A DNA stretch of 64,000 nt from Phycisphaerae bacterium (GTDB lineage Bacteria > Planctomycetota > Phycisphaerae > UBA1845). Below, piece by piece: positions 28,201-53,555 of this stretch. Location: positions 1-64,000 of the forward strand of contig JANQQK010000008.1 in the NCBI GenBank assembly GCA_028289375.1. Reading direction: 5' to 3'. Every line of letters begins with the position of its first letter. Position 1 is the first letter of the stretch. Below the pieces are notes generated by a model. The model searched no databases and was not told the origin of the DNA. It saw nothing but the letters and a program-made list of their open reading frames with translations. The position numbers and the translations under genes were made by a program.

Positions 28201-31200
28201 GACAGCACCACCCTCAATGAGGTCGTCTGCGTCAAACACACCGTTGTTGTTGCAATCGCAAACGTTCGGCGGGCTCATCGCATCGCAGGCCGTACCATCA
28301 CCAAGGTACGTGCCAGTGCATGCACCTTCCGTCGTGTCGGTGCATGTCACGGTATCGCAGCAAGCACCTGTCGGGATCACGCAATCGACCGGCTCGGCAC
28401 ACATCATGCCGTCGTCAGTCAACTCGATCGTGAAGTCACCCGTGGCGGCGAAGTCACTACCGATGGCAACGTAGTACGTTGTCCCCATCGTCGTGCAGAG
28501 TGAAACCTCAGCAGCAGTCACCGGATCCGGTGCGGAGCAGCTGTCGTCGTCGGACGCCGCACACACAAGGTCGACACACGTGCCACAATAAACGTGGATC
28601 GTATCGTCGAACGAGGTGTTTGGATCACAGGCACTCACGGTCATGGTATTGCCCGTACCGGTAAACTCGTACCAGAGCGTATTGCCCGGTGCCGGCTCAC
28701 CGTCACAGGTCTCGGTGATGTCGTCGGTCGCACCGCTGTTGTTGCCCGAAACCGGGGTATCAACAGCAAGGGCGATCGAATCAAGACAATCATCATTCGG
28801 CTGCGGGCAGAGATTCGGATCGCAATTCGTTCCGTCACCCTGATACGCGCCCATCGCCGTCGCACAGTCACCCGAGCTGAGCAAGCTGCACGTGCCATCA
28901 GCGGCACAGCATGCACCGGAATCACATGGATCCGGCATGTCTGAGCAACTCGTGCCAAGACCGAGGAATGTGCCCATCTGGTTGTCCGTGCAATCAGTCG
29001 CGGTCGTGTCATCGCACATACCGCCACCGAGGCAGCAAGCACCAGTCTGGCAATCGATCTCAACGTCAATCACCGGCGGAGCACCAGCCGCCCAGTCACC
29101 AATGTTGATGAAGTACTGCGTACCACCGACTACATCGACGGTGAACGACTCAGGGTCTGAACACGCCACTTCCGTAAGCGCGCCAGCACACGTGTCATCA
29201 TCGCTTGTGTAGACAACTGCCGCAGTATCGCCACCTGTGCGATTGACCGACAGCGAGCAATCATCAGTCGGCTGGAAGCAGTACCACACACCGTTGGCAA
29301 GCGAACCAGCATCAAGATTGCAGCTGATATCCGGATCAGCACCGGCCAACGACAGATCAACGTCGTCGTCCGTGAACGGCAACGAACCCGGAGCAACATC
29401 GATGCAGGAGTCGCAATCATCATTGCAGACGAAATCGTCGCAACTCGTGCAATCACCGTTGTAGACAGCATCTGTAATGCCACTGCATACGGCCATTGAC
29501 GTCACCGTGCAGGTACCCGAAGGCAGACAGCACGCACCACGGTTGCTCGGATCGATCGGCTCACAACTGTCCGGCAGATCGTTCAGGTCACAATCGGTCA
29601 GAAGGGGTGGATTCGGTGCGACGTTGATGAAGTTCAGCGTCCAGCTGTTCAACGTTCCCGGATCTGGCGTGGCGGCGTCATGGATCGTCAGCGTCCAGTC
29701 AGACGCCTTTTCAAGACCCACAAACGCACTCAACGCCTCGAACGGACGGAATGAGTCGCCGCCACTGACATCGCCGGTCTGGTCTTCAAGAGCCTGAGCC
29801 GCCGCGTCATTGAGCGTCACGACCAAGCCGCTGTTGCCGTTTCCGAATTCACCGTTGGTGTTCTCGGTGCACAACGGTCCGCCCGTTTCAGCGGTACCGA
29901 TACGGCTCACAAGACGCACGGTCGTCATTGACGATTCGTGTGTCAGATCGATGACAAGATCGCCCACGAACGTGTGCGAAATGTCGAGGCTGACTTCCAT
30001 GTCGACAATCGCACCAGCTGTGCCGGTAAACGTCTCCGTGAAGTTGTCGAACGTGAACGGAGGCGTCGAACCAACCACACAATCGTCAGCGAGCGCCGCA
30101 GCCGGGCTGTACGTCTCAGACTTGAACGTACCACCAGTCGGCAGCAGGTCATCGCCGTCGAAGATCATGTTGCCATTGCAATCGCAACGATTGTTCGGGG
30201 CCAACTCATCACAAGCCGTTCCATCACCGAGATACGTCCCGCTAAGGGTCGTTTCACAGTGCGTCTGAACAACCTCGCTGCAAGTGAAGTCGCCTTCGCA
30301 GCATGCACCCGTTGCGGTGCAGCTATCCGGCTCGCAAGTCGTACCAATACCAAGGAACGTATCCGTCCCGGTGCAAGCCGACTCTTCGACCTCAACGCAG
30401 CCGCCGGTGATTTCGTTGTCACAACAAGCACCGGTAAGAACCTGCGCCTCGCCGACGCGAATATCGTCGATCGCGATGTCGCTTTCGAATCCAGGACCGG
30501 TCACACCGCGGAAGCGGAGATTCACCGTGTCACCCGTGAACGCTGAAAGCGATACCTGCTCAACAAGCCACGGATCAGAATTGCCCGATTGCTGTGGACC
30601 TGAGATTGTTGTCAACGTGGTCCAACTCAGACAGTTGTCGTCGGACACCTCAAGGAACAGGTCGCCCATGTTGACGCCGAACATGTGGTAGGCAAACGTC
30701 ACCGTCGGGTCCGAGAGACTCGCGAGATCGATGCACGGACTCTGCAGAACGAACGTGTCACCGCCGTCGCATGGCACCGAAGACTCGGTGTAGGCATATT
30801 TGCCGCCACCGCCAGCGTCGTCATCCGGTCCTGTCGCAAAGCTTGATCCGGTCAAGCCCATGTTGATTCCCCAATCGCGCCCCGCAGGATCATCGTCAGT
30901 CGCGTTGACCCACAAGCTCGGCGAAAGATCTGGGCAGGCAGCGCCGCATGTCGTCGCACAATCCGAAACTGCATCGAAGTCTTCCACGAACGGGAAGCTC
31001 GTCACGGTCGTGTTGCAAGGACAAGGCTGCGGGCAGACCGTCGTCATGCAGTCTTCGCCCAATGTGAACCCATTTGCGTTCATCATGCCCGTGCAGGTGG
31101 CTTCGTCGGTGGTTTCAACACACATGCCATCCGTCAGGCAGCAGGCACCGTCATCACACGGATTGTCCGTGCAGTCCGTGCCATCACCCAGGTACACGGC

Positions 31201-33054
31201 ATCCATAATGGCCGCACAGGCACTCGGCGACAGAACGGAACAGGTAGTCCCGTCACAGCACGCGCCCGCAAGCGGCGTACAATCAGGCGGATCCATGCAC
31301 GCCATGCCGTCATCGGTAATCTCAAGCAAGAACGCCCCCTGCGTGGAGAAGTCGCTCGCACCGCCAACCGAGACCAAGTATGTCTCGCCGGAATCTGAGC
31401 AGAATGAGATTTCAGACGCCAGGGTCGGATCACCACAGCTATCATCATCACCATCAACACAAATCGGATCGGAGCACGTGCTGCAGAAAATGTTGACTTC
31501 AGTATCAAAGTCAGTGTCCTGATTGCAGGTGCTCACGGTGATGGTGTTGCCGGTACCGGTAATCTCGTACCAAACCTCAGAACCGTTCGCGCCACCAGCA
31601 CCACAACTCGGATTCAGGTCGGAGTTGGCCCCAACGTTCGAACCCAGCGTCGAGCTTGGGACCGCCACGGAAATCGCATCATCGCACAGGTCGTTGCAGG
31701 CCGACGCTGCACAAGACGTGCAGTCACCCTGATACGTACCGCCCGCCATCGTGCAGTCCGCCGAAGTGCCATCGGAGCAACCACCACCGGTCAGGCAGCA
31801 GGCACCCTGGGTCGTCGGATCAGGCGTTTCGCACTCGTCGAGTGTGCCGTCGCCATCACAGTCGGTGGAAATCGGTGCGGCCGAATTGAAGATCAGTGTC
31901 CAACTGTCGAGCGTACCAGTGTCATCCGTAGCATCATCACCGACGATCAACGTCCAATCACCGGTAATCGCCACACCGTCAAAGTCCGACAAGCTGCCTT
32001 CAGGGATAAACTGACCCGTGTACGGAGCGCCAGCCGCGGTAATGGAAGTGATCAGCGTCGTTGCTTCGTCGTTCAGCACGGTTCCGGTGAAGTTCGTGGC
32101 GCCGAGACCATTGCCGTTATCCGTCGTTAATTCGACGGTGATGTCATCCACTCCGTTGTTGTAATTGAGGAACACCTCAAGGTCACCGACCCACGTATGC
32201 GAGATGTTCAATTCGACGTTGACATCCGTCACAACGGTCGCGTCGACAAGCGACTGTGTATCCGAAATCGGGGACAGTGGCATATTGTCCGGGATCGCGA
32301 GTGCAGGCGACGACGTAAATGTCGTGCCGGAACCCTCAAGCAGATCATCGGGATCGAAAATGCCATTGTCATTGCAGTCACACGCATTGCCCGGAGGACC
32401 AAAGTCAGCACAGGTCGTCCCATCACCGAGGTACGTTCCCATGACCACGCCCGTGCAATCCGCTTCGATCTCATCCGTGCAGGATGCACCGTCACAGCAG
32501 GCGCCCATCATGGGCGGTCCGTTTGGAAGCGTCTCGCCGGCACGCATCTGAGACAGTGCGTGCAATGCGTGGACGTCGGTCAGCGCCGCCGCCGCCTGGT
32601 CCGCAATCTGGCGATGACCGGTCGCCGCAGCACTGTCACCAATCAGGCCGACAAGCTTCACCAAGCTGGCGTCAACGCTGTTGAGCAGGGCGCGACCTTC
32701 TTCACCGCGCGAAAGACCTGCCTTCAGCTGACCGCTCTCGCGCTCAAGCGTGAAGGACAGTTCCCGCAACAGTTCATTGATGTACTGCGAACGCAGGCGA
32801 AGGCTGTCAGACTTGGCGATCTGGGCCAACTTCGCAGCATTCTCCGACTTCTCCATGTCCGGAGACATGGTCTTCTCGGCCGATACCTCGCCCTCGACGG
32901 GTGCGGGAATCTCGGCACTGTTCGGGGCCTTCTCCCCAAGCCTGGTCGTAGCACCAACATCTGCCATCACGCTGCCGGCCATCCAACTGCCGACGGCGAG
33001 ACACGATGTCAGCGCCACCAATGTACGCGTGTTCCACGTTACATGCGGTCGCAT
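25243..33054 (-). CDS. Giant (~2600 aa) mosaic secreted protein: P-domains, GACC Cys-rich modules, MAM-like region, dockerin-like segment and C-terminal cohesin-like domain
   Basis: Signal peptide MRPHVTWNTRTLVALTSCLAVGSWMAGSVMA; four (S/N)I(S/T/A)H..(V/A)(G)D(L/I).(V/I)(F/D)L..GTL(D/N/R)SWT(L)xF P-domain units; many 'GACC...C..(A)C.G.YLGDGT.C' units; DDILAIVAAFGG; C-terminal QAGGLVEVDVYLSGVEGLIGFELG. Confidence 0.85.
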   Translation of the reverse strand: MRPHVTWNTRTLVALTSCLAVGSWMAGSVMADVGATTRLGEKAPNSAEIPAPVEGEVSAEKTMSPDMEKSENAAKLAQIAKSDSLRLRSQYINELLRELSFTLERESGQLKAGLSRGEEGRALLNSVDASLVKLVGLIGDSAAATGHRQIADQAAAALTDVHALHALSQMRAGETLPNGPPMMGACCDGASCTDEIEADCTGVVMGTYLGDGTTCADFGPPGNACDCNDNGIFDPDDLLEGSGTTFTSSPALAIPDNMPLSPISDTQSLVDATVVTDVNVELNISHTWVGDLEVFLNYNNGVDDITVELTTDNGNGLGATNFTGTVLNDEATTLITSITAAGAPYTGQFIPEGSLSDFDGVAITGDWTLIVGDDATDDTGTLDSWTLIFNSAAPISTDCDGDGTLDECETPDPTTQGACCLTGGGCSDGTSADCTMAGGTYQGDCTSCAASACNDLCDDAISVAVPSSTLGSNVGANSDLNPSCGAGGANGSEVWYEITGTGNTITVSTCNQDTDFDTEVNIFCSTCSDPICVDGDDDSCGDPTLASEISFCSDSGETYLVSVGGASDFSTQGAFLLEITDDGMACMDPPDCTPLAGACCDGTTCSVLSPSACAAIMDAVYLGDGTDCTDNPCDDGACCLTDGMCVETTDEATCTGMMNANGFTLGEDCMTTVCPQPCPCNTTVTSFPFVEDFDAVSDCATTCGAACPDLSPSLWVNATDDDPAGRDWGINMGLTGSSFATGPDDDAGGGGKYAYTESSVPCDGGDTFVLQSPCIDLASLSDPTVTFAYHMFGVNMGDLFLEVSDDNCLSWTTLTTISGPQQSGNSDPWLVEQVSLSAFTGDTVNLRFRGVTGPGFESDIAIDDIRVGEAQVLTGACCDNEITGGCVEVEESACTGTDTFLGIGTTCEPDSCTATGACCEGDFTCSEVVQTHCETTLSGTYLGDGTACDELAPNNRCDCNGNMIFDGDDLLPTGGTFKSETYSPAAALADDCVVGSTPPFTFDNFTETFTGTAGAIVDMEVSLDISHTFVGDLVIDLTHESSMTTVRLVSRIGTAETGGPLCTENTNGEFGNGNSGLVVTLNDAAAQALEDQTGDVSGGDSFRPFEALSAFVGLEKASDWTLTIHDAATPDPGTLNSWTLNFINVAPNPPLLTDCDLNDLPDSCEPIDPSNRGACCLPSGTCTVTSMAVCSGITDAVYNGDCTSCDDFVCNDDCDSCIDVAPGSLPFTDDDVDLSLAGADPDISCNLDAGSLANGVWYCFQPTDDCSLSVNRTGGDTAAVVYTSDDDTCAGALTEVACSDPESFTVDVVGGTQYFINIGDWAAGAPPVIDVEIDCQTGACCLGGGMCDDTTATDCTDNQMGTFLGLGTSCSDMPDPCDSGACCAADGTCSLLSSGDCATAMGAYQGDGTNCDPNLCPQPNDDCLDSIALAVDTPVSGNNSGATDDITETCDGEPAPGNTLWYEFTGTGNTMTVSACDPNTSFDDTIHVYCGTCVDLVCAASDDDSCSAPDPVTAAEVSLCTTMGTTYYVAIGSDFAATGDFTIELTDDGMMCAEPVDCVIPTGACCDTVTCTDTTEGACTGTYLGDGTACDAMSPPNVCDCNNNGVFDADDLIEGGAVVTETSSPALAIPDGDTVTGVSDTLSLSDSTVITDVNVVLNITHGFTADIDVFLNYNNGVDDITVELTTDNGDAGDNYVDTQLSDEAGVAITAGVPPFTGGFRPEGMLSDFDGQMITGDWTLTVFDDDAAILGTLDSWTLQFNSGAPAGTDCDSNGTLDECESPDPSMTGACCMTDASCADGLTQGACEGMGGVYQGDCTFCEDVECPLPNDECADAISVAVGGSAMGDNTGAIDESTPFCGGTGLLDQGLWYSVTGDGNTLTATTCNPGTDFDTQIQVFCRDCDDLVCVGGNDDQDDNDPFDPACDSTGTGTVHRASTFSWCAEAGQEYFIAVGGFGSTDEGMFELSVSTDSTSCDDAVFCPVPTGACCGATVAAAGGGISCQTDVTQEACETAGGTYAGDFTDCAATGLGGTICDCNGNGVDDSADISATGPAPVGSSDPEPDAAIPSCDAATQMGVDEFLNDTLVVAGGPASIAGDMVVSLDVAHSFVGDLVIDLTNENSGTTVRLVERIGNDPLDTLPLCNDNGISFGNGNDDLVALLSDSASAELDSQTVSVSGGLAYTPFEALSAFDGEDSNGTWTLTLHDGAEIDDGSLRAWSIAFGAIMQTSPDCNSNGTPDECDIADCEDPEGTTPECNDCNGNSIPDECDIASGTSLDEIDGMANGIPDDCEPGDGEPCTRDCDCYIAGVGEPSFDVCDYHYCENDVCTSCARRWGNTCDSFAGFVQTDDILCAVTGFGNYCACPNGDLIAAGGTKGPSGSPLGTDDILAIVAAFGGANPFMCPVPGSGEGCDAATPPTSTGCGGPAAASMATSSAFTGQDLVAAPQSRRSANALGASFVMVPRQRAVQAGGLVEVDVYLSGVEGLIGFELGAAANGGRRGQMSLETVQIDSQRFDYVFNGLTNFPATDAELGRVGGAAMGGSVDVAADKQAYLGTFTFRVSDNAVGAFNVSALAEYVALYSEFGSITMNPVKDVVVLVTTASEGR

Positions 33055-33662
33055 CCTGTTCCTCCTGGTATTAAACGCACTTCCCAAAATTCCGTTCCTC
33101 ACTGCCTTGCACCCGATCTTGTTCCTTACCCGATCGAGCTGAATTGCAGATCACGAGCATCCACGCAATGACTCGCTATAGAAATTGCACAACACCCCTG
33201 CGACAACGTGGTCACAGCGGCGCATGGTTTCACCCTTGATCAACGACTACTTGGTCAATACCGACTCACCCTCAAGATCCCACGCCTGACTTCGTTCACA
33301 ATTTGCAACACCTGCGATCGCAACCACCCCGAACACGACTCCGGAGCAACCGGACAGGTCTTCATTGATGCAGATTGAACGATTTGCCTTGGATGCTGTC
33401 TCGGCAGGAATCCCCTCCTCGTTACTCGCCTTTAGGGCGACGATACAGATGTGACGTCCTGACAGCCGATGGTGCACCTGCGGCGACATGAACGCCCGCT
33501 AACTGAAGGGCGAGTATATCAGGACGTACCGGCCAATTTCAAGCAACAATCCACCATTACCGAGCTACCCGATTTTCGTAAATCCCGTAAACTTCCTACT
33601 TTAACTCGCCTGCCACGCCAGGCCCTTGCCCATTGGCCCCATCCTGATAAAAACACCATCAA

Positions 33663-34564: not shown

Positions 34565-35275
34565 TTAGGAGACACCAGTCAACTGCGACCGTACCCAATC
34601 CAGCGTGACGCCCTTTTCGGCGAGCAGCTTCGACGCCACAGCGTCCTCATCGCGGAGCATGGCCAGCAAAAGGTGCTCCTGCTTGATTTCGCCATCGCCA
34701 AGCCGGTTGGCGGCATCGGTGGCCAAGATCAGAACGTGCCAGAAATTGGGTGAACGAAATGCCTTGCTCAATTCCTGCTGGTGCAGCCACTCGAACTCGC
34801 CATGCCGCGAGTGGGCCAGATCGTGCGTCGGATCAACGCTCGAATTCAGCAGCCCGAGGGTTTTCTCACGTAACGAATCGATCTCCACACCATGCTCCTT
34901 GAGCACCTTGGCCGGCAAACCATCGTCGAGATTCAACAACCCCAATACCAAATGCTCTGTGCCGATGTAGCGATGACCGAATTTGCGGGCCTCGGCGATC
35001 GCGGCGGCGATGGCAGCCTTCGTTTCGTCCGTCTGGGCACGGCGTCCCATAGACGAGCCGCCGTTACCACCCGCCATCTGCGCGCTGACCTTGTCGCGGA
35101 CCGCAGCCAGATCGACCTTCAGCAGTCGCAATGCCTCGGTGGCGACGCACTCGCCCTCGGCAATCAATCCGAGCATCACGTGCCCGGGGGCGAGGTAGTC
35201 GTGGCCAAGCTTGCTGGCCTCCTGATTCGCGAGCGCCATTGCATGGCGGGCCCGATCTGAGAATCTCTCGAACAT
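34565..35275 (-). CDS. Stand-alone double Clp N-domain protein
   Basis: MFERFSDRARHAMALANQEASKLGHDYLAPGHVMLGLIAEGECVATEALRLLKVD...RKFGHRYIGTEHLVLGLLNLDDGLPAKVL; no AAA+ module in the ORF. Confidence 0.9.
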   Translation of the reverse strand: MFERFSDRARHAMALANQEASKLGHDYLAPGHVMLGLIAEGECVATEALRLLKVDLAAVRDKVSAQMAGGNGGSSMGRRAQTDETKAAIAAAIAEARKFGHRYIGTEHLVLGLLNLDDGLPAKVLKEHGVEIDSLREKTLGLLNSSVDPTHDLAHSRHGEFEWLHQQELSKAFRSPNFWHVLILATDAANRLGDGEIKQEHLLLAMLRDEDAVASKLLAEKGVTLDWVRSQLTGVS

Positions 35276-39357: not shown

Positions 39358-39584
39358 AGGATCCCTTTCCATATCCGATTTCCGGGGATGACACTTGCAC
39401 CAAGGCACCGTTTCGCAGCGCAGCGGCCGCGACGGAGTGGATAATGTAGCACTTGATCCGGTCAACGTGTACCCCATATGTGTGAAACTGTAGACAATTC
39501 CCTGCGATTCCCGTGCTCACGTCTCTGGACATGCGTTCATCACTTTCTGATGATGTACGCGGATCAACACGGAGCGAATCAGCC

Positions 39585-40913
39585 ATGCACGACCAACGAC
39601 CAATCGCCGACATCGTCAACCTGCTCGACCCGGCGAACAACATCCTCTTCAATCACACGCACGACAACGCACACGAAATCGTCCGCGATGGCGAGCCGGA
39701 TCGAATCAACGCCATCGAGGGGCAGTTTGCCATCGTCGCACAGAACGGACGCACGGTGCGCATGGCTCGGACCATCGGTCGACTTATGCGCTACTTCATC
39801 GCCAAGCGCGTCGACGGCCCACAGTTGGTCGTGGCCGATCGCATCGCGGCGATTCGGGATTGGCTTGAATCGGAAGGACTCGGCGATCAGTTCCACCCAT
39901 CCTACACCCGCATGGTGCCGGCGCACTACCTCGTGGAGCTTGAATTACTTGGCTGCCCTGATCCAAACCCGACCTACCATCGCTACTTCACGCCGCCGCG
40001 CAATACGCTGCCCGCCGACCTCGACGTCATCGGCCGGAAGTACATCGAGGCACTCGACGCCGAGATCGGCAAGTGGCTGAGACAAATGCCGTCCGACGCA
40101 CCCGTCGGCGTGTGCTTCTCCGGCGGAATCGACAGCGGTGCGGTGCTCTTTGTGACCTACGCCGCCATGCTTCGTGCAGGCATGAATCCCTCACGACTCA
40201 AGGCGTTCACGCTCAGCATTGACGGCGGCGGGGATGATCTCGCCCAAGCCCGCCAGATGCTCAAGTCAGCCAAGCTCGACATGTTCCTCGAATCGATCGA
40301 GATTGAACGATCCGATATCGACATCGAACAGACCGTCTGTCTCGTCGAAGATTACAAGCCGTTGGACATCGAAGCCGGCGCGATGACGCTCGCGCTTTGT
40401 CGCGGCATTCGTCAGCGCTACCCGGACTGGAGCCACCTCATCGACGGCGACGGTGGCGACGAGAACCTCAAGGACTACCCCATCGAGGAAAATCCGGAAC
40501 TGACCATCCGCAGCGTCCTCAACAACATGATGCTCTACCAGGAAGGTTGGGGCGTCGACTCCATCAAGCATTCGCTGACCTACTCGGGCGGGCAGAGTCG
40601 CGGTCACGCACGTGTTTACGGTCCCACAACCGAACTCGGCTTCAACGCGTTCAGCCCTTACACGTCGCCATCGGTGATCGCCGTGGCCGAGGCGATTCCC
40701 TACATCGACCTCACCGGCTGGGATCATGAGAAGCTATATCGCTTAAAGGGGGACATTGTGTCACGAGGCGTCAAGGCAGTGACGGGCATGGACATGCCCA
40801 TCTTTGAAAAACGACGATTCCAGCACGGTGTGATGCACCGCGACGCGTTCAACGAGATGTTCCCCGGCGATGAACTGACCTATCGCCGCATGTTCAACGC
40901 GCTCTATGCCTGA
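39585..40913 (+). CDS. Asparagine-synthetase-like (PP-loop) ATP-dependent ligase with degenerate N-terminal domain
   Basis: VGVCFSGGIDSGAVLFVTYAAMLRAG (SGGxDS); LIDGDGGDENLKDYP; starts MHDQRP with no MCG nucleophile Cys. Confidence 0.85.
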   Translation: MHDQRPIADIVNLLDPANNILFNHTHDNAHEIVRDGEPDRINAIEGQFAIVAQNGRTVRMARTIGRLMRYFIAKRVDGPQLVVADRIAAIRDWLESEGLGDQFHPSYTRMVPAHYLVELELLGCPDPNPTYHRYFTPPRNTLPADLDVIGRKYIEALDAEIGKWLRQMPSDAPVGVCFSGGIDSGAVLFVTYAAMLRAGMNPSRLKAFTLSIDGGGDDLAQARQMLKSAKLDMFLESIEIERSDIDIEQTVCLVEDYKPLDIEAGAMTLALCRGIRQRYPDWSHLIDGDGGDENLKDYPIEENPELTIRSVLNNMMLYQEGWGVDSIKHSLTYSGGQSRGHARVYGPTTELGFNAFSPYTSPSVIAVAEAIPYIDLTGWDHEKLYRLKGDIVSRGVKAVTGMDMPIFEKRRFQHGVMHRDAFNEMFPGDELTYRRMFNALYA

Positions 40914-41838
40914 GTTGAGCACGCCCATCACCGACCAGTGGGTTCTCGACCGTCGCGGGCCAAGGAACGACGTCGACCCCGATGTACCCTACGCGTTTCT
41001 CGTCGAAAAGGAGTTCTCCCATCACGGCACATGCGACGACGTGGCCACCCTCTTCCTGACCAACCGAGAGTGTCCATATCGCTGCCTGATGTGTGACCTG
41101 TGGAAGAACACGACCACCGATCGCGTCGCGCCGGGACAGATTCCGCGTCAGATTCGCCATGCCCTCGACCGACTACCCCCCGCACGACACATCAAGTTGT
41201 ACAACAGTGGAAACTACTTCGATCCCAACGCGATCCCAACGGTCGACGATCCGGACATCGCCAACCTCGTCGCCGACTTCGACACCGTCATCGTCGAGAG
41301 TCACCCCAACATGGTGGGCAAACGCTGCCTCGCGTTCAACGACATGACCACGCCCGAGGTCCATGTCGCCATGGGACTCGAAACGGTTCACCCGGAGGTC
41401 CTGCCGCGGCTCAACAAACGCATGACACTCGCCGACTTTGAGCACGCCGTGAAGACGCTGATCGAAAACGGCATGCAGGCCCGCGCGTTCATCCTCCTGC
41501 GTCCACCGTTCCTGTCCGAATCGGAAGGCGTCGAATGGGCGATGAAATCCATCGACTTCGCGTTCGACATCGGCGTCGAGTGTTGCGCCGTCATCCCGAC
41601 ACGCGCCGGCAACGGCGCCACCGAAGCGCTGGCATCACTGGGACATTTCACACCGCCCAATCCCAATTCGTTGGAGCAAGTGCATCGCTACGGCCTCTCG
41701 CGAGAGAACGGACGCGTGTTCGTCGATCTGTGGGATCTGCAACACCTGCAGCGCGGCAGCGACGCAGACCGCGCGATGTACGATCGCATGAACCGGATGA
41801 ACCTCACCCAGCAGATCGCAGGCGCTGACGACGCATGA
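40906..41838 (+). CDS. Radical SAM protein, RaSEA/Elp3-like organisation
   Basis: NRECPYRCLMCDLWKN (CxxxCxxC); IKLYNSGNYFDPNAIP...DTVIVESHPN...HVAMGLETVHPEVLPRLNKRMTLADFEHAV. Confidence 0.9.
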   Translation: MPELSTPITDQWVLDRRGPRNDVDPDVPYAFLVEKEFSHHGTCDDVATLFLTNRECPYRCLMCDLWKNTTTDRVAPGQIPRQIRHALDRLPPARHIKLYNSGNYFDPNAIPTVDDPDIANLVADFDTVIVESHPNMVGKRCLAFNDMTTPEVHVAMGLETVHPEVLPRLNKRMTLADFEHAVKTLIENGMQARAFILLRPPFLSESEGVEWAMKSIDFAFDIGVECCAVIPTRAGNGATEALASLGHFTPPNPNSLEQVHRYGLSRENGRVFVDLWDLQHLQRGSDADRAMYDRMNRMNLTQQIAGADDA

Positions 41839-43331
41839 CAACGAACCGAATCGATTGCGACGTCGCCGTTCTCGGCGCTGGATTCGCCGGCAGCCTCATC
41901 GCCCTGATCGCGCGACGACTCGGCCACTCAGTCGCCCTCCTCGAACGCGACAGCCACCCGCGATTCGCCATCGGCGAATCCTCAACCCCGCTGGCCAACC
42001 TGAAACTCGAAATACTCGCCAAGCGCTACAGCCTCGATGAACTGTTGCCGCTCACCAAATACGGCACATGGAAAGCGAGTCGCCCCGACATCGCCTGCGG
42101 TCTCAAGCGCGGATTCAGCTTCTTCAAACACACGCAGGACCAGCCGTTCACTTCGACCCCGAACCACGACCGCGAACTGCTCGTCGCCGCCAACCCGGAC
42201 GCCCATCACGGCGACACACAATGGTACCGACCCGAGTTCGACACCTTCGTCAATCAACGCGCCCGCGACGCCGGCGTCATCTACCACGACCAATGCACAA
42301 TCGACAACATCAACCATGACGACGCCTGGCACATCGTGGGCCATGACACGACGAAAGACCTTCACGTCACAGCCCGCTACTGCATCGATGCGACCGGATC
42401 AGCCGCGGTTCTCGCTTCACGCCTGCAGACCGCCCCGCCAATCGAACAGATCACCCGATCGCGCACGCTCTTTGGCCACTTCCGCAACGTCGCACGCTGG
42501 TCCGACATTCTCAACGACCTGAACATCTCCACGACCGATCATGTCTTCGACAGCGACGACGCCGCGCTGCATCACCTCATCGACGACGGCTGGATGTGGG
42601 TGCTGCGATTCGACAACGGCATCACCAGCGCCGGATTCTCGCTTTCGCCAGACCGATACCCCGTCGACAACGCCAACCTTCCCCAGGATGAATGGACCAA
42701 CCTTGTCCAGCGATACCCTTCCATCGCCCGCCAATTCGACGACGCGTTACCCGCCGTTCCGATCCGACGCACCGACCGCATCCAACGCCGCCTCGCCACC
42801 GCCGCCGACCGACACTGGCTCGCCCTGCCTCACACCGTTGGCTTTGTCGACCCATGGCTCAGCCCGGGTCTCGCCCACACCCTTTACGGCGTCGAACGCG
42901 CAGCCAGAATCCTCGAATCGCTCGATGACGCCCCACGCCAATCGGAACTCATCCGGGATTATCAGGTCCGAGTCGCCGCCGAGTTCGACCTCATCGATCG
43001 GCTCACCGCGGCCTGCTTCGCCAACCTCAATCGATTCGACATCCTGACCAGCATGTCCATGCCCTACTTCGCCGCCGCCATCACCTGTGAGGAACGCATC
43101 CGCGCCGGCCAGACCGAGCGTGCACGTTCCTTCCTCCTTGCCGACGATTCCGAATTCAGACAAATCGTCGACACATGCTGTAAGTCCACGGAAGATCCGA
43201 CATGCGACGCCGAGCAAGTGGCCAACCTGATCCGCGACGCCATCGACCCCTACAACGAAGCCGACCTCTGCAATCCAGCCCGACGCAACATGTATCCATT
43301 CACCGGCACCATCCAGCCGGTATCGATCTGA
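41835..43331 (+). CDS. FAD-dependent oxidoreductase, flavin-dependent-halogenase-like
   Basis: CDVAVLGAGFAGSLIALIARRLGHSVALLERDSHPRFAIGESSTPLANLKLEILAKRY; ATGSAAVLASRL; DGWMWVLRFDNGITSAGFSL. Confidence 0.82.
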   Translation: MTTNRIDCDVAVLGAGFAGSLIALIARRLGHSVALLERDSHPRFAIGESSTPLANLKLEILAKRYSLDELLPLTKYGTWKASRPDIACGLKRGFSFFKHTQDQPFTSTPNHDRELLVAANPDAHHGDTQWYRPEFDTFVNQRARDAGVIYHDQCTIDNINHDDAWHIVGHDTTKDLHVTARYCIDATGSAAVLASRLQTAPPIEQITRSRTLFGHFRNVARWSDILNDLNISTTDHVFDSDDAALHHLIDDGWMWVLRFDNGITSAGFSLSPDRYPVDNANLPQDEWTNLVQRYPSIARQFDDALPAVPIRRTDRIQRRLATAADRHWLALPHTVGFVDPWLSPGLAHTLYGVERAARILESLDDAPRQSELIRDYQVRVAAEFDLIDRLTAACFANLNRFDILTSMSMPYFAAAITCEERIRAGQTERARSFLLADDSEFRQIVDTCCKSTEDPTCDAEQVANLIRDAIDPYNEADLCNPARRNMYPFTGTIQPVSI

Positions 43332-43370
43332 GGGCGTGCCAACAACCGTGTCATGACTATAATGACCGCC

Positions 43371-44165
43371 ATGAACCATCGTCAGCCGGTCAGTATCCAC
43401 GTCGTCATCGCATTGTCGTTGTCATTCGCCGGCATGTGTGTACACGCCCAAACCGACACCGCCGTCACATCCAAGGCTGAACCATCAAGCCCAACTCCCA
43501 GCGAGCCTGACTCAAAGTCCCAGCAGCAATGTGTCGCCCTGATTGCCAAAGGCCGATTCGACGAAGCCCGCGAACTGGCCAAGTCGTTCGTCGCTCAGCA
43601 TCCGAAGTCCTCGCAGTCTCATCTCCTTCTCGCACTGACCTATCACAAGCAGCGGAAGTACGAGCAGGCAGAACCGCTTCTCGAGAAAGCGATCGCGCTC
43701 GACGAAGATCACAACCCGCCCAAGATGTTCCTGGGCTGGTGTCGCTACTACCTCGGCAAACAGAAAGAAGCCGAGCAGTCGTTTCTCGCCTACCTGCCAA
43801 CCAATCCCGACTACCCCGACATCCACTTCGCCCTCGGTCTGATCGCCTACGAACGCGACGACCTCGAAGAGGCCATGACCCGATTCGACCGCGCCATCAA
43901 ACTCGCCAGCCAACAGCGTCGCGCCACCGATGAAGCCAAGTCCCGCGCCCGCCGCGCCGACATCCTCATCCGCCAGAACAAACTCGAAGAAGCCCGCGAC
44001 GAACTCACCACCGCCATCCGCCTGAATCCGCGTCTATACGGCGCCATGTACAAACTCTCCCGCGTGTTCCACCGCATGGGCGACAAGGAAAGCGCCAAGA
44101 AGGCAAAAGCCATGCATGACACCGTCCGCGAAAAACTCCACCCGACAAAGGGACACCCCGAATGA
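43371..44165 (+). CDS. Exported tetratricopeptide-repeat protein
   Basis: AEPLLEKAIALDEDHNPPKMFLGWCRYYLGKQKEAEQSFLAYLPTNPDYPDIHFALGLIAYERDDLEEAMTRFDRAIKL. Confidence 0.85.
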   Translation: MNHRQPVSIHVVIALSLSFAGMCVHAQTDTAVTSKAEPSSPTPSEPDSKSQQQCVALIAKGRFDEARELAKSFVAQHPKSSQSHLLLALTYHKQRKYEQAEPLLEKAIALDEDHNPPKMFLGWCRYYLGKQKEAEQSFLAYLPTNPDYPDIHFALGLIAYERDDLEEAMTRFDRAIKLASQQRRATDEAKSRARRADILIRQNKLEEARDELTTAIRLNPRLYGAMYKLSRVFHRMGDKESAKKAKAMHDTVREKLHPTKGHPE

Positions 44166-45841
44166 TGCCCAGCTCGCGCACGATCGTCATCGCACTTCTG
44201 GCTGCTGCGGGCACGCTGCACGCCTCCGACATGCGCTTCACCGAAATCGCCACACAAGCCGGCGTCGACTTCACCATGACCTGCGGCGGAACACCTTCGA
44301 AACACATCCTCGAGGTCGACGGCGGCGGTGTTGCCCTCTTCGACTTTGACAACGACGACGACCTCGACCTCTTCTTCGCAAACGGTGCAACGATCGACGA
44401 TCCCGAGAATGGCCCCGGCAGCCGACTTTACGCCAACGACGGCAAGGGGCGATTCACCGACGTCACAAAAAAGCACGGCATCAACGTCAAACGCTGGGCG
44501 ATGGGCGTTGCCGTCGGCGACATCGACAACGACGGCGACGATGACATCTTCATCACCTGCTATGGCCCCAACATCCTGCTCAGAAATGACACATCCAAGG
44601 GCAAAGGTGCATTCGTCGACATCTCAAAACGCGCAGGCGTCGACGACGATCGCTGGGCCACCAGCGCCGCCTTCGGCGACATCGACGGCGACAGCGACCT
44701 CGACCTCTACGTCGTCAACTACCTCGAGTTCGACCACAAGAACCCACCCAGCCGCGAAGGCGTCAACTACAAGGGCGTCCCGGTCATGGCAGGCCCGCAC
44801 GGTCTCAAACCGCAGCAGGACATTCTCTACCGCAACAATGGCGACGGCTCCTTCACCGACATCACCAAACCGTCCGGCTGCCTCGTCGACGAACCCGGCT
44901 ATGGCCTGGTCACGCTCATGCTCGACTTCAACGGCGACAACAAGCAGGACATATTGGTCGGCAACGACTCGACCGAGAACTTTCTGTTTGAAAACAAGGG
45001 CGACGGCACCTTCGAAAACATCGGACAATTCTCCGGCATCGCCTCGAACATGGACGGCAGCAACCAAGCCACCATGGGCATCGGCGTCGGCGACATCAAC
45101 GGCAACGGCCACCCCGACACCATCGTCACCAGTTTCTCAAGCGACACCAACACGATCCACCTCAACCTCGGTGATGGCTTCTTCGAGGACCGCACCGCCC
45201 AGTTTGGCCTTGGTTTGATCACACGACCCTACCTCAACTGGGCCTGCGTCTTCTACGACTTCGACAACGACGCCGACGAAGACTTGTTCATTTCGTCAGG
45301 CCACGTCTACCCGGAAGCAGCAACGGCCAAAATCGACTCCGAATACGAACAGGAACAATTGCTCTTCGAACGCGTCGCGGGAACCCGCTTCAAACGCGTC
45401 TCCAACGCCGGCCCAATCGTGACCGAGAAGCTAAAGGGGCGATCCGCAACGTTCGGCGACATCGACAACGACGGCGATGTCGACATCGTCCTGACCCAGC
45501 TCAACGGACCGGTCAAGATCTACCGCAACGACACATCCAACAGAAACATGCTCGCCGTCGAAACACGGCAACCCGGCGGCAACCACCGCGCCTACGGCGC
45601 CACCGTCGAACTTCATGCCCACGACGCGAGGCAGATTCGCTGGATTCACGGCGGTGGCAGCTATCAGTCCGTCAGCGCCCCGATCGCCTACTTTGGACGC
45701 GGCAGCAGACCGACAAACGACGCCACCCTCAGGATCACCTGGCCAAACGGTGACAAACAGGAAATCAAAAGCGCTCCCAATCAAGGAAGATTGATCATCA
45801 CGCGCGGCCAGGACAACGTCGTGGTTCGCCCGTTCAACTAA
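44162..45841 (+). CDS. Secreted FG-GAP/VCBS-repeat protein with ASPIC/UnbV domain (CRTAC1-like)
   Basis: Repeated (V/A)(A/F)GDI(D/N)(N/G)DGD.D(I/L); C-terminal GGNHRAYGATVELHAHDARQIRWIHGGGSYQSVSAPIAYFGRGSRP..ATLRITWPNGDKQEI. Confidence 0.93.
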   Translation: MMPSSRTIVIALLAAAGTLHASDMRFTEIATQAGVDFTMTCGGTPSKHILEVDGGGVALFDFDNDDDLDLFFANGATIDDPENGPGSRLYANDGKGRFTDVTKKHGINVKRWAMGVAVGDIDNDGDDDIFITCYGPNILLRNDTSKGKGAFVDISKRAGVDDDRWATSAAFGDIDGDSDLDLYVVNYLEFDHKNPPSREGVNYKGVPVMAGPHGLKPQQDILYRNNGDGSFTDITKPSGCLVDEPGYGLVTLMLDFNGDNKQDILVGNDSTENFLFENKGDGTFENIGQFSGIASNMDGSNQATMGIGVGDINGNGHPDTIVTSFSSDTNTIHLNLGDGFFEDRTAQFGLGLITRPYLNWACVFYDFDNDADEDLFISSGHVYPEAATAKIDSEYEQEQLLFERVAGTRFKRVSNAGPIVTEKLKGRSATFGDIDNDGDVDIVLTQLNGPVKIYRNDTSNRNMLAVETRQPGGNHRAYGATVELHAHDARQIRWIHGGGSYQSVSAPIAYFGRGSRPTNDATLRITWPNGDKQEIKSAPNQGRLIITRGQDNVVVRPFN

Positions 45842-45850
45842 GACACACCC

Positions 45851-46381
45851 ATGCCCGCGAAAACCATGCCCAAACTGCTCACGATGCTGTGTTGCATCGC
45901 CACGATAACCGCCGGCTGCTCCACCAGGCCCTCAGTCCGAATCTTCGAGCCCCAGTCGGAGACACTGTCCGCAAACACAACCACATCCGCCCCACGCGTC
46001 GCATTTGCGACGCGCAACGATTCAACCCAGATCGTCATCGACTGCCCCCTTCCAGGATCGCAGCACGGCAAACCATATAGCTCGATCTACATGGTGCTCC
46101 CAACCCTCGATGGCCGATTCGACTTTGCAAACCGAACCATACGCGGTCTCTACGTTCAGCACAGCGGCCCCCGCGCAGGATGGACACGCATCGCCAGCGG
46201 TTTCGTCGAATGGTCTCCGCCCACGCTTGGCCTCGGCTCGCACACCGCCGCGTTCAACATCCGCACGGCAGACACCACCCACGTCACTGGCACCTTCAAA
46301 GCCCTCCGCGACGAGCGCCGCGTCCGCCAGTTCGAACGGCGTCATGCTGACTACATCACCGCGCTCACCGCCGCCCCATAA
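45851..46381 (+). CDS. Putative lipoprotein, hypothetical
   Basis: Lipobox-like LLTMLCCIATITAGCS; starts 10 bp after the ASPIC/UnbV gene. Confidence 0.7.
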   Translation: MPAKTMPKLLTMLCCIATITAGCSTRPSVRIFEPQSETLSANTTTSAPRVAFATRNDSTQIVIDCPLPGSQHGKPYSSIYMVLPTLDGRFDFANRTIRGLYVQHSGPRAGWTRIASGFVEWSPPTLGLGSHTAAFNIRTADTTHVTGTFKALRDERRVRQFERRHADYITALTAAP

Positions 46382-46517
46382 CCCCGTCGACCCCGCGCTC
46401 CGATAGATTCGTGCATCCCGTCCCCATCGAACCGACGCTCATCCGCGGGCAAACCCTCGTTGAAGCCCACCCAACCACGGGTCGATGCTGGTTGCGTCAG
46501 GATGCAAAACCGGAGCG

Positions 46518-47459
46518 ATGATCATGTGCGCCGACATCAACGAACAACTTATCGGAGCCAAGAAACGCCTCGAGCAGCAGCGCTCCGCCAAGCACAAGTC
46601 CGTGCAGATGCAGGACCAACTCAAGCAACAAACCTACAAGATGCAGTACGCAGAACTCGCCATCGAGGAACTGAAGCAGCACATCAACACCTTGGAATCC
46701 CTGACACTCACCAGCCTGTTCAGCACCCTCACCGGTACGAAGAATGAGAAGCTCAAGGAAGCGCAGGACCGCCTGAGAATCGCCGAGCAGGAGTTCGCCG
46801 ACCACGCCCGCACTGTCACCAAACTGCAATCCGAATTCCAGCGGTTCACCACCATCGCCGACAACGCAGACGACGCCGGAACCCAATACGACCAGCTATT
46901 GCAGCAAAAACAGAAAGTACTGCTCGACGGCGATGACGGGCCAGCCGCCGAACTCAAACGCGTCGTCGATCAGTCCGCGAGCCTGAAGGAACAACTCCGC
47001 CTGCTCAACCGCTGCCTCGAAACCGGGCGCGAGTTGCTCAACAGCATCAGCAGCCTCAACAAAGCCGTCGACCGCGCGCGCAACCGAAACATCAATTCCC
47101 GAGGCACTATGGGACTCGGCTCGCTCTACAACCACGCCCAGCAAAAGTCGACCACCCCGGTCGTCACCCGCGCACGCGATGGCATCGAAAAACTCCGCCA
47201 ATGCATCGACCAGCTCGACCTGTCAGCCGGCACGCCCAATGACCTGGAAGTGGCCGAAAAAGCCCCGAACCTCGAACCGCTCGTCGTCGAACTGCACGAC
47301 GGCTGGATTCACTCCGTCGTCGACAGCTACACCGCCACCCACGGCATCGAAGATTGCGTCCGCAGCGTGCTCAACGCCATCGACGACAAACGCGAGGAAG
47401 TCGAAAAGCAGGCCGGCCAGACGGAAAAGCAGCGCCGCCAGATCATCGAAACGGCATAG
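46518..47459 (+). CDS. Coiled-coil hypothetical protein
   Basis: Heptad-rich NEQLIGAKKRLEQQRSAKHKSVQMQDQLKQQTYKMQYAELAIEELKQHINTLESL... Confidence 0.7.
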   Translation: MIMCADINEQLIGAKKRLEQQRSAKHKSVQMQDQLKQQTYKMQYAELAIEELKQHINTLESLTLTSLFSTLTGTKNEKLKEAQDRLRIAEQEFADHARTVTKLQSEFQRFTTIADNADDAGTQYDQLLQQKQKVLLDGDDGPAAELKRVVDQSASLKEQLRLLNRCLETGRELLNSISSLNKAVDRARNRNINSRGTMGLGSLYNHAQQKSTTPVVTRARDGIEKLRQCIDQLDLSAGTPNDLEVAEKAPNLEPLVVELHDGWIHSVVDSYTATHGIEDCVRSVLNAIDDKREEVEKQAGQTEKQRRQIIETA

Positions 47460-49392: not shown

Positions 49393-51756
49393 ATGCCCAA
49401 CATCATCACCCGCTACACGAAATGGCTGCACACGCAATGGCCAGCCGGCACCGTCGAAAAACTCCCCGAAGTGCGCGAAGACGGATCAACCAACGTCCCC
49501 GGCATCTACGTCACCGGCGACCTCACCGGCATCCCACTGCTCAAGTTCTCAGCAGACACCGGCGCCCGCGCCATTCAGACAATCGTGAAAGACAAGGACT
49601 TCCAGAACCTCCGACAGCAATCCCATGACGACACCAAAGACGTCGTCATCATCGGCGGCGGCGTCTCCGGCATGGCCGCCGCCCTCGAAGCCAGCAAGAA
49701 CAACCTCGACTTCGTCCTTCTCGAAGCCAGCGAACCCTTCTCCACCATCGTCAACTTTCCCAAAGCCAAACCCATCTTCACCTACCCGACCGACATGACC
49801 CCCGCCGGCGACCTCCAGTTCACCGCCGAAGTCAAGGAACCCCTCGTCGACGAACTCCGTGAGCAAACTCTCGACAAGGGCATCGAACCGGTCAACGCCC
49901 GCGCCGAAAGCATCAAACGCAAAGGCAAGCTCTTCGAAGTCGTCATCGCAAACGGCGAAAATATCCTCACCCGCCGCGTCATCGTCGCCATAGGCCGATC
50001 GGGCAACTTCCGCAAACTCGGCGTCCCCGGCGAAGACAAGGACAAAGTCTACAACCGACTCCACGACCCCAAGGATTTCTGCGGACAGAATGTCCTCGTC
50101 GTCGGCGGTGGCGACAGCGCCCTCGAATCCGCCATCGCCCTCGCCCAATGCGGATGCAACGTCACCCTCTCCTACCGCAAACCCGAATTCTCACGCCCAA
50201 AACCCGAGAACGTCGAACGCCTACAGGCACTGCAGGCAGACCCGATGGCCGATGTCGAAATCGACGAACCATCTTCCGAACGCGTCACCACCGCTTCGGG
50301 CACCTTCCTCGGCGAACACCGCAAACCCGGTTCCATCACCCTCGCCCTGCCATCCAACGTCAAACAGATCGACGACGACACTGTCACGCTCATCGGCGGC
50401 GACAAAGCCGAACAGACCATCCCCAACAACGCCGTCTTCGCCATGATCGGCCGCGAGCCGCCCCTCGATTTCTTCCGCCGCAGCGGCATCAACATCAGCG
50501 GCGAATGGCGAACCAGCACCAAGCTCTCCTTCGCCGCCTTCATGGCCTTCTGCGTCTTCCTCTACCACTGGAAGAAGGACATCGGCCTGCCAATCAACAA
50601 GTTCTTCGTCAACCGCGGATGGTTCCCCTACAACGTCTCATCATGGTTCGATCGCCTCGGCGAAGCTGCCAGCGACCCAACCACCCTGCTCTACACGCTC
50701 AAGACATCGATGGCCCAGCCCGGCTTCTACTACACCCTCGCCTACTGCGCCTGCGTCGTCATCTTCGGCATCAAACGCATCAAGCGACGCAAGACCCCAT
50801 ACGTCAAGCTACAAACCATCACCCTCATGATCATCCAGTGCCTGCCCCTCTTCATCCTCCCCGAAATCGTCCTGCCCTACGCCGGACGAAATGGCGCCTT
50901 CGCCGAGGGCACGACACTCGCCCCCATCGCCGACCAACTCTTCGAACGCGACGACGACGTTGGCCACGAACGCGCCTACTGGCGCGCATACGGCCTCATC
51001 CTCGCCTGGCCACTCTTCGTCTTCAACGTCTTCACAGATGCACCGATGTGGGGCTGGCTCATCATCAGCCTCATACAAACCTTCATCCTCATACCCACGA
51101 TGATCTACTTCTGGGGCAAAGGTGCGTACTGCGGATGGGTCTGCTCCTGCGGCGCATTGGCCGAAACCCTCGGCGACGCACACCGCCACAAAATGCCCCA
51201 CGGCCCCTTCTACAACCGACTCAACATGGTCGGCCAAGCCGTCCTCGTCTTCGCCGGCATCCTCTTCATCCTCCGCGTCCTCGGCTGGATCATGCCAGGC
51301 TCCGTCTTCCACAACCTCTTCGATCAACTCTTCAGCAAGATCCCGTTCCTCAACTACAAGTGGTCCGTCGACCTGCTGCTCGCCGGCATCCTCGGCGTCG
51401 GCTGCTACTTCTGGTTCTCAGGCCGCGTCTGGTGCCGCTTCGCCTGCCCACTCGCAGCACTCATGCACATCTACGCCCGCTTCTCACGCTTCCGCATCCT
51501 CGCAGATAAGAAAAAGTGCATCTCCTGCAACGTCTGCACCTCCGTCTGCCACCAGGGCATCGACATCATGAGCTTCGCCAACAAGGGACTGCCCATGGAA
51601 GACCCCGAATGCGTCCGATGCAGCGCCTGCGTGCAGTCATGCCCCACCGGCGTCCTCGAATTCGGACAGATCAACCGACAGACCGGACAGGTCATCAGCC
51701 GCGACAGCCTCGTCGCATCACTCGTTCGCGAACGCGAAGGAGCAAACCCATCATGA
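49393..51756 (+). CDS. Fusion of pyridine-nucleotide flavoprotein to NapH/CcoG-like membrane 4Fe-4S electron-transfer module
   Basis: VVIIGGGVSGMAAALEASKNNLDFVLLEA, VLVVGGGDSALESAIALAQCGCNVTLSYR; C-terminal TMs, WCRFACPLAALMHIY, CISCNVCTSVCHQGIDI, CVRCSACVQSCPTGVLEF. Confidence 0.92.
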   Translation: MPNIITRYTKWLHTQWPAGTVEKLPEVREDGSTNVPGIYVTGDLTGIPLLKFSADTGARAIQTIVKDKDFQNLRQQSHDDTKDVVIIGGGVSGMAAALEASKNNLDFVLLEASEPFSTIVNFPKAKPIFTYPTDMTPAGDLQFTAEVKEPLVDELREQTLDKGIEPVNARAESIKRKGKLFEVVIANGENILTRRVIVAIGRSGNFRKLGVPGEDKDKVYNRLHDPKDFCGQNVLVVGGGDSALESAIALAQCGCNVTLSYRKPEFSRPKPENVERLQALQADPMADVEIDEPSSERVTTASGTFLGEHRKPGSITLALPSNVKQIDDDTVTLIGGDKAEQTIPNNAVFAMIGREPPLDFFRRSGINISGEWRTSTKLSFAAFMAFCVFLYHWKKDIGLPINKFFVNRGWFPYNVSSWFDRLGEAASDPTTLLYTLKTSMAQPGFYYTLAYCACVVIFGIKRIKRRKTPYVKLQTITLMIIQCLPLFILPEIVLPYAGRNGAFAEGTTLAPIADQLFERDDDVGHERAYWRAYGLILAWPLFVFNVFTDAPMWGWLIISLIQTFILIPTMIYFWGKGAYCGWVCSCGALAETLGDAHRHKMPHGPFYNRLNMVGQAVLVFAGILFILRVLGWIMPGSVFHNLFDQLFSKIPFLNYKWSVDLLLAGILGVGCYFWFSGRVWCRFACPLAALMHIYARFSRFRILADKKKCISCNVCTSVCHQGIDIMSFANKGLPMEDPECVRCSACVQSCPTGVLEFGQINRQTGQVISRDSLVASLVREREGANPS

Positions 51757-52481
51757 AACCAGCCGCAACGACCACCACAGCCGCCCTGATCATCGGCACA
51801 ACGATCAACACCGCCCACGCCGTCGACCACAGCCAACTCGACGCCATCCTCCGCGCCAACGTCCGCAACGAACGCGTCGACTACGCCAACATCAGAGACA
51901 ACCACAAGTCGACATTGTCCGCATACCTCGACACGCTCGCCAAGGTCGACCCCGCAGACCTCCCCCGCAACGAACAACTCGCCTATTACATCAACCTCTA
52001 CAACGCCACCGTCATCCACACCATCCTCGACCGCTACAATCCCGGCTACTCCGTCTCCGAAGACAACTTCAAAATCTTCGACGAAAAACATTGCCGCACC
52101 GCCACCGCCACCGCCACCTTCAGCCTCAATCACCTCGAAAACAAAATCATCCGCCCCACCTTTAAAGACCCCCGCATCCACGCCGCCCTCAACTGCGCCG
52201 CCGCCTCCTGCCCACCGATTCACAATCGCGCATTCACCAGCGCAACGCTAGACGCCACCCTAACGCACCTCATGCGAGCGTTCGTCAACGACGCGTCGCG
52301 AAACACGATCGACATGAAGTCACGCACGCTCACACTCAGCAAAATCTTCGAATGGTACGCCGTCGATTTCGGCGACAAGAAAGGCCTCGCCAAGTACGTC
52401 AACCAATACACCGACAAGGACGTCAGCAGTTACACCGTCACGTTTCAGGATTATTCCTGGAAACTCAACGACACAATGTAA
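51753..52481 (+). CDS. DUF547 family exported protein (copy 1)
   Basis: LDAILRANVRNERVDYANIRDNHKSTLSAYLDTLAKVDPADLPRNEQLAYYINLYNATVIHTIL...DPRIHAALNCAAASCPPI. Confidence 0.92.
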   Translation: MKPAATTTTAALIIGTTINTAHAVDHSQLDAILRANVRNERVDYANIRDNHKSTLSAYLDTLAKVDPADLPRNEQLAYYINLYNATVIHTILDRYNPGYSVSEDNFKIFDEKHCRTATATATFSLNHLENKIIRPTFKDPRIHAALNCAAASCPPIHNRAFTSATLDATLTHLMRAFVNDASRNTIDMKSRTLTLSKIFEWYAVDFGDKKGLAKYVNQYTDKDVSSYTVTFQDYSWKLNDTM

Positions 52482-52556: not shown

Positions 52557-53555
52557 ATGCGTATCCCACATCTCATCCGTTCAGCCTGCCTGCTGACAGC
52601 GCTTCCCCTACAGATTGCATTCGCCGATCCCCCGACCGTCGACCACGCTGCGTTCGACAAAATCCTCAAGGAAAACGTCCACGGCGACCGCGTCGACTAC
52701 CTCAACATCCGCGCCAACCACTGGCGCGAGTTCTACGACTACTTCGATCACATCCGCAGCATTGACCCCAGATCCCTCGAACGCGACGAACGCCTCGCCC
52801 TTTACATCAACCTGTACAACGCCAGCATCATCAGAACGGTCATGGAGGAGTATTTCGAGGGATACCATTTCCATACTGACTACAGAATGGTTCCGCGCGC
52901 AAGAGAGATCGAACCGGCTGAATCAGAGCGGCGGATGTACACACAGCCGCGGTTCTACCCGGGCTTCATCACGCAGGACTCCATGTCCACGTTCCCGGAA
53001 TTCCGCACCCTCATCACCCTCGGCGAATTCATCGAACCCCGCGCCCACGCCGCCCTCTGCGACGCCAACCGCACATCACCGAGGCTGCGCAACCACGCAT
53101 ACACCGGCGACAAGATCCACGACCAACTCAACGACGCCATGCGCGACTTCCTCAACGATCCCAAACGCAACCGCATCGACACCCACATAGGCCAAGCCCG
53201 CCTCAACCCCCTCTTCAAGAAGCACAAACGCCAGTTCGGCTCAGACGAGGACTTCCGCTACTTCATCAGCCACTTCTCCGGCATCAATGTTTCCGTCCAC
53301 AACATCACCTACCTGAAAGCAGACGACCGCCTCAACTTCATCCCGCCCCGCGACGGCGAATGGATCACAGCAACCCGTCAGGTCGAATACTTCCAAAAAC
53401 CCGGCGGCACCGCGTCGATCTGGGAAATCCCACGTTTCACTGTGCTGTTCGTCCTCGGCCGCGACGGCAACCTGATCCAGGTCTATAACCCCCGTTCGAA
53501 CGACGCCGTCTGGATCACGGCCGAGCACACCCGACCGACAAAATGGACGCCATAA
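52557..53555 (+). CDS. DUF547 family exported protein (copy 2)
   Basis: FDKILKENVHGDRVDYLNIRANHWREFYDYFDHIRSIDPRSLERDERLALYINLYNASIIRTVM...EPRAHAALCDANRTSPRLRN. Confidence 0.88.
   Translation: MRIPHLIRSACLLTALPLQIAFADPPTVDHAAFDKILKENVHGDRVDYLNIRANHWREFYDYFDHIRSIDPRSLERDERLALYINLYNASIIRTVMEEYFEGYHFHTDYRMVPRAREIEPAESERRMYTQPRFYPGFITQDSMSTFPEFRTLITLGEFIEPRAHAALCDANRTSPRLRNHAYTGDKIHDQLNDAMRDFLNDPKRNRIDTHIGQARLNPLFKKHKRQFGSDEDFRYFISHFSGINVSVHNITYLKADDRLNFIPPRDGEWITATRQVEYFQKPGGTASIWEIPRFTVLFVLGRDGNLIQVYNPRSNDAVWITAEHTRPTKWTP

Follow-up and report, generated by a model that had tools for sequence, protein, structure and literature searches.

In a 64,000-nucleotide stretch of genomic DNA from a Phycisphaerae bacterium (Planctomycetota; contig JANQQK010000008.1, positions 1 to 64,000), hereafter the window, we found an operon that starts with three enzyme genes, encoding ASN (an asparagine-synthetase-like amide synthetase), RSAM (a radical S-adenosylmethionine (SAM) enzyme) and FAD (a halogenase-like flavin enzyme). 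The conserved core of this arrangement is the ASN-RSAM pair, and FAD is a planctomycete addition. We propose, at a probability of about 0.48, that the pair forms the core of an undescribed cytosolic pathway to a small amide or lactam-type compound and that the product, which would be a small molecule or a cofactor, is used extracytoplasmically together with ASPIC proteins. Both Planctomycetota and Bacteroidota are rich in FG-GAP/ASPIC (CRTAC1-like) proteins, and we found no paper in the open-licence literature that assigns a biochemical function to the bacterial members. The pair tracks one ASPIC subclass across phylum boundaries, and named isolates carry it, which turns ASPIC function into a testable question: what metabolite or modification requires the pair.

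The three genes are intact open frames on the + strand (39585-43331) and stand above chance, in that each matches a protein family and other phyla have the same order of genes. A sequence-only reading of this stretch had placed them correctly as overlapping frames: the coding sequences of ASN and RSAM overlap by 8 bp and those of RSAM and FAD by 4 bp (ATGA), and the motifs that it cited (the PP-loop CFSGGIDS, CxxxCxxC, GESSTPL and DGWMWVLRF) are all present. Its view of the trio as a candidate undescribed pathway agrees with our searches of family libraries and open-licence papers, in which we found neither a description of the ASN-RSAM pair nor a paper joining radical SAM, asparagine synthetase and halogenase with Planctomycetota.

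A GTDB scan gave 295 RSAM-related stretches, the best 80 of which were analysed; the scan patterns were derived from the window sequence, so that the breadth found is a lower bound, phylum labels were taken from record titles, and metagenome-assembled genomes make up most of the records. An ASN gene is found no more than 1.5 kb from RSAM in 75 of these 80 loci, which belong to Planctomycetota, Bacteroidota, Calditrichota and Marinimicrobia, and the two coding sequences share bases in 61 of 69 loci. FAD is encoded in 18 of the 22 Planctomycetota loci versus 0 of the 58 others; the synteny of the trio is thus conserved, with the pair as its core and FAD restricted to Planctomycetota. The window proteins are 56-77% (ASN) and 52-71% (RSAM) identical to their homologues. 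Furthermore, among 60 planctomycete relatives, strong ASN matches and full-length RSAM matches coincide in 19 genomes, while the 20th RSAM-positive relative shows just a fragment of RSAM, located at a contig edge; FAD occurs in 17 of the 20 RSAM-positive relatives and in none of the others. RSAM is found in 22 of 392 genomes of a phylum-wide Planctomycetota sample, several of which carry it without an adjacent ASN, and in 4 of 151 Flavobacteriaceae. Named isolates with the pair are Maribacter polysiphoniae, Limnoglobus roseus and Gemmata sp. IIL30. We found no close RSAM relatives on viral contigs and no ASN on plasmids.

ASN contains an Asn_synthase domain (PF00733, 58.1 bits, cut-off 21) and scores far under the cut-off of the AsnB equivalog (TIGR01536, 45.2 bits versus 267.1). 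Besides the PP-loop it carries the motif GDGGDEN and a KRRFQHG loop, which align, respectively, at SGDGADE and near the KRKK loop of the AsnB encoded in the same genome. The first ~80 residues of that AsnB, with the MCG start and the Cys2 nucleophile, have no counterpart in ASN. Cys2 is likewise absent in all 32 homologues aligned, across which many further positions are invariant; the PP-loop is conserved as well, with its first G replaced by A in most Bacteroidota. Because the glutaminase is lost, we infer that ASN adenylates a carboxylate and couples it to an amine that is not ammonia released from glutamine. An AlphaFold model of ASN (pLDDT 88.8) found as its best Foldseek match beta-lactam synthetase (1m1z, E 1.7e-12, TM 0.54-0.58), followed by asparagine synthetase, carbapenam synthetase and the hydroxyamidotransferase TsnB9, and in this model the predicted fold is nearest to the lactam-forming synthetases. 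Beta-lactam and carbapenam synthetases share with ASN the asparagine-synthetase fold and its PP-loop; however, identity between ASN and these or other asparagine-synthetase-like enzymes, such as the lasso cyclases, TsrC, ScdTA and PesC, is only 12-17% over the fold. Enzymes of this kind perform lactam formation, amidation or nitrilation in natural-product pathways (PMC13060819). Unlike in those enzymes, the glutaminase domain of ASN is cut short and not merely inactive, and no non-ribosomal peptide synthetase, precursor of a ribosomally synthesised and post-translationally modified peptide (RiPP) or beta-amino-acid gene was recognised in the ASN context.

The cluster motif of RSAM, C56xxxC60xxC63, is invariant in 45 homologues. 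Its best curated relative is the archaeosine enzyme RaSEA (TIGR01210, E 4.8e-26), with a score of 91.7 bits that falls under the equivalog cut-off of 212, and on this comparison RSAM is a RaSEA relative outside the RaSEA family proper. Foldseek matched the structural model (pLDDT 95) to PFL activase, lipoyl synthase and Elp3 (TM about 0.5), and profile library searches gave no SPASM family match. Most homologues outside the window clade carry a C-terminal CxxC...C that is lacking in the window RSAM, and the site is therefore not essential throughout the family. Lysine is first attached to preQ0 by ArcS, and RaSEA acts as part of a complex with that enzyme (PMC11298593). The ASN-RSAM pair would offer a parallel, with a radical-SAM enzyme of the same sequence family and a partner that may join an amine to a substrate, but RSAM is bacterial and under the family cut-off, and its partner is an asparagine-synthetase homologue, not ArcS; we take this analogy as a possible lead and not as a test.

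FAD resembles the halogenases PltM (phmmer, E 9.2e-39) and tetracycline 7-halogenase (3.8e-37) over 364-420 residues. Its K91 aligns with a lysine of both enzymes, which we take to be the catalytic halogenase lysine, and K91, W253 and W255 are invariant in 14 FAD homologues. At the WxWxIP site the sequence reads WMWVLR: the WxW is invariant, and none of the 14 homologues has IP, most having LR in its place. In view of the similarity, the aligned lysine and the WxW, halogenation is conceivable; FAD nevertheless differs from both halogenases in lacking the IP and in having no flavin reductase alongside. We consider a halogenase and a hydroxylase both possible.

The strongest contextual signal for the pair is its FG-GAP/ASPIC partners. 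The sequence-only reading had found no known marker next to the trio; this stands for a precursor peptide, but the reading overlooked that the operon runs on into a TPR gene, 21 bp after FAD, and an FG-GAP/ASPIC gene, which overlaps the TPR gene by 4 bp. Both products have a hydrophobic N-terminal segment resembling a signal peptide and are predicted, as read from their sequences, to be exported, and the same reading gave no such segment for ASN, RSAM or FAD. Both genes are kept in a locus of the same genus (L021), the FG-GAP/ASPIC gene at 72%. Outside the window, the pair has an ASPIC gene as its neighbour more often than any other gene; in 38 of the 46 non-planctomycete loci that allowed the comparison, such a gene ends no more than 400 bp upstream of ASN. 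In planctomycete relatives the median number of PF07593 copies is 10 with the trio versus 2 without. Plain ASPIC count was rejected as a specific partner, because 116 of 151 Flavobacteriaceae have ASPIC and only 4 have RSAM.

A protein of ~1190 amino acids with TPR, FG-GAP and ASPIC parts adjoins the pair in Bacteroidota operons and in Gemmata-type loci. It ends in a ~440-residue C-terminal domain that is strongly conserved between phyla and has no Pfam or PDB match by sequence. We found this C-terminal-domain protein in exactly the 4 of 151 Flavobacteriaceae that have RSAM (p about 5e-8), in 19 of 20 RSAM-positive versus 7 of 40 RSAM-negative planctomycete relatives (Fisher 5e-9) and, within the window's own family, in 17 of 18 versus 5 of 18 (Fisher 8e-5), p-values that are optimistic since they assume independent genomes and ignore shared ancestry.

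In Bacteroidota the pair can be part of a much longer run. In Maribacter luteus, genes for an ASPIC protein, a hydrazine-synthase (HZS)-alpha-like and an HZS-beta-gamma-like protein, a Reg_prop propeller, a Rid/chorismatase-like protein, two substrate-binding proteins, the C-terminal-domain protein, ASPIC-554, ASN and RSAM follow one another on one strand, and the synteny of this large operon extends over three Flavobacteriaceae genomes. In other Bacteroidota operons a DAHP synthase gene adjoins those of the binding proteins, and some have a chorismatase/Rid-like protein; these neighbours hint at an aromatic small molecule. The HZS-alpha-like and HZS-beta-gamma-like genes (L110:4031-7498) lie inside the ASN-RSAM run of a non-anammox Maribacter, which makes non-anammox hydrazine-synthase-like proteins part of a larger operon that also encodes amide-forming and radical enzymes. 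Clusters of genes for HZS-like, CRTAC1-family and two substrate-binding proteins are described, as function-unknown clades I-III, in the main text of PMC12758564, where neither "radical SAM" nor "asparagine" occurs; that part of the Bacteroidota cluster is already published, and its HZS-alpha-like, HZS-beta-gamma-like, ASPIC and binding-protein genes are those that share a run with ASN-RSAM in Flavobacteriaceae. The 4 of 151 Flavobacteriaceae with RSAM are also those with strong HzsBC-like matches. Planctomycete relatives show no such link between HzsBC-like proteins and RSAM (9 of 20 with RSAM versus 11 of 40 without, p 0.25), and the window genome has no HZS-beta-gamma-like protein at E 1e-20. 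Hydrazine-synthase-like genes as the core of the system thus fit Flavobacteriaceae and are rejected by the planctomycete counts and by their absence from the window genome; since they do not track RSAM in planctomycetes, we regard them as an optional module.

The pathway that we propose builds on the protein families, the folds, the loss of the glutaminase, the conserved operon and the co-occurrence with the C-terminal-domain protein; its substrates, order of steps, product and use by ASPIC proteins would be as follows. ASN would activate a carboxylate with ATP and couple it to an amine in place of ammonia from glutamine. RSAM would form a 5'-deoxyadenosyl radical and act on the ASN product, perhaps cleaving or rearranging it at the amide nitrogen, as RaSEA does with preQ0-lysine. 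In Planctomycetota only, FAD would halogenate or hydroxylate an electron-rich ring. Secreted FG-GAP/ASPIC proteins, chiefly the C-terminal-domain protein, would use the product, possibly a cofactor or a shuttle, outside the cytoplasm.

Several observations weigh against this proposal. ASPIC proteins are abundant in Flavobacteriaceae that lack the pair, 7 planctomycete relatives encode the C-terminal-domain protein but not the pair, and in the window genome the gene for this protein lies on another contig (locus L103, 7218-10625), unlinked to the trio. Moreover, one genus of large Planctomycetota genomes has the pair with neither FAD nor ASPIC nearby, and the analysis revealed neither a substrate or product nor a transporter, thiolation domain or flavin reductase. 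We nevertheless favour the small-molecule pathway over maturation of a secreted protein, then over an unlinked role, and then over RNA modification. The RiPP logic considered in the sequence-only reading is weakened, as no conserved small open reading frame lies beside the pair: none near it is common to more than two loci, a precursor elsewhere in the genome being still possible, and a Pfam search found no leader-binding family in the window operon.

The alternative that survives best, possible but in our view unlikely, is that ASN and RSAM, with FAD where present, mature the secreted ASPIC/C-terminal-domain protein ahead of export by giving it a covalent modification or a protein-derived cofactor. 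This would be analogous to QhpD/QhpG and LodB/GoxB acting on quinone-cofactor enzymes, and QhpG, GoxB and LodB are among the best curated NCBIfam matches of FAD. The near-obligate co-occurrence with one specific secreted protein, the conservation of its C-terminal domain between phyla and the failure to find a precursor peptide argue in the same direction. However, FAD is far nearer to the small-molecule halogenases PltM and tetracycline halogenase, and scores 79.6 bits against QhpG, under the cut-off of 240; RSAM has no SPASM match and its window clade no extra C-terminal cysteines; DAHP synthase and the substrate-binding proteins would be left unexplained; and seven relatives carry the C-terminal domain while lacking the enzymes.

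A distinctly unlikely reading, for which pyrroloquinoline quinone (PQQ) and beta-propeller dehydrogenases are the analogy, is that ASN and RSAM (with FAD) make an unknown redox or catalytic cofactor for which the FG-GAP/ASPIC proteins, and especially the C-terminal-domain protein, would be the extracytoplasmic user enzymes; if true, part of the large CRTAC1-like family would gain a biochemical role. Improbable, too, is that the pair has a housekeeping or catabolic role of its own and that its link with ASPIC reflects a shared lifestyle as surface-living degraders. The genus in which the pair stands alone, the wide variation of ASPIC copy number in genomes without the pair and the unlinked C-terminal-domain gene of the window genome are consistent with such a role, but the ASPIC genes close upstream of ASN and the synteny of the large operon in Flavobacteriaceae argue against it. 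Finally, that RSAM performs a bacterial archaeosine-like RNA or nucleoside modification, with ASN supplying an amine-bearing intermediate in place of ArcS, is very improbable: RaSEA is the best curated relative of RSAM and partners a lysine-transferring enzyme (PMC11298593), but RSAM is far under the TIGR01210 cut-off, sparsely distributed and co-occurs with exported proteins, and no ArcS, TGT, queuosine or other tRNA-modification gene was recognised among the neighbours read, no genome-wide search having been made.

Table 1. Genes of the window operon, with positions in the window.
Feature	Position	Strand	Description
ASN	39585..40913	+	asparagine-synthetase-like amide synthetase, 442 aa
RSAM	40906..41838	+	radical-SAM enzyme, archaeosine RaSEA relative
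FAD	41835..43331	+	flavin enzyme, PltM/tetracycline-7-halogenase type
TPR	43353..44165	+	exported TPR-repeat protein; many TPR families matched
FG-GAP/ASPIC (CRTAC1-like)	44162..45841	+	exported; PF13517 E 8.5e-43, PF07593 E 6.7e-15

An in-frame GTG at 39513 is an alternative start for ASN and would give a protein of 466 amino acids (aa). The ASPIC gene is closely followed, on the same strand, by two genes for proteins without a Pfam match (45851-46381 and 46485-47459), which are kept in the same-genus locus L021 and may be further members of the operon. A promoter and terminator scan gave signals not above those from shuffled sequence. In locus L103, the C-terminal-domain gene of the window genome stands beside a divergent ASPIC gene, and 6 bp upstream of it is a caprolactamase/hydantoinase-like gene (L103:3423-7211, 1262 aa); this gene was rejected as a common component, being absent from the other planctomycete loci examined.

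Elsewhere in the window, 49393-51756 encodes a 787-aa fusion of a pyridine-nucleotide-disulphide oxidoreductase half and a Fer4_5/4Fe-4S dicluster half, an unusual joining of flavin reductase and ferredoxin-like parts, and two neighbouring DUF547 proteins are encoded at 51786-52478 and 52557-53552. On the minus strand, a stand-alone Clp_N-domain protein with three matched stretches and no ATPase part is encoded at 34565-35275, and a 2619-aa protein at 25243-33102 combines proprotein-convertase P-domains with a MAM domain.

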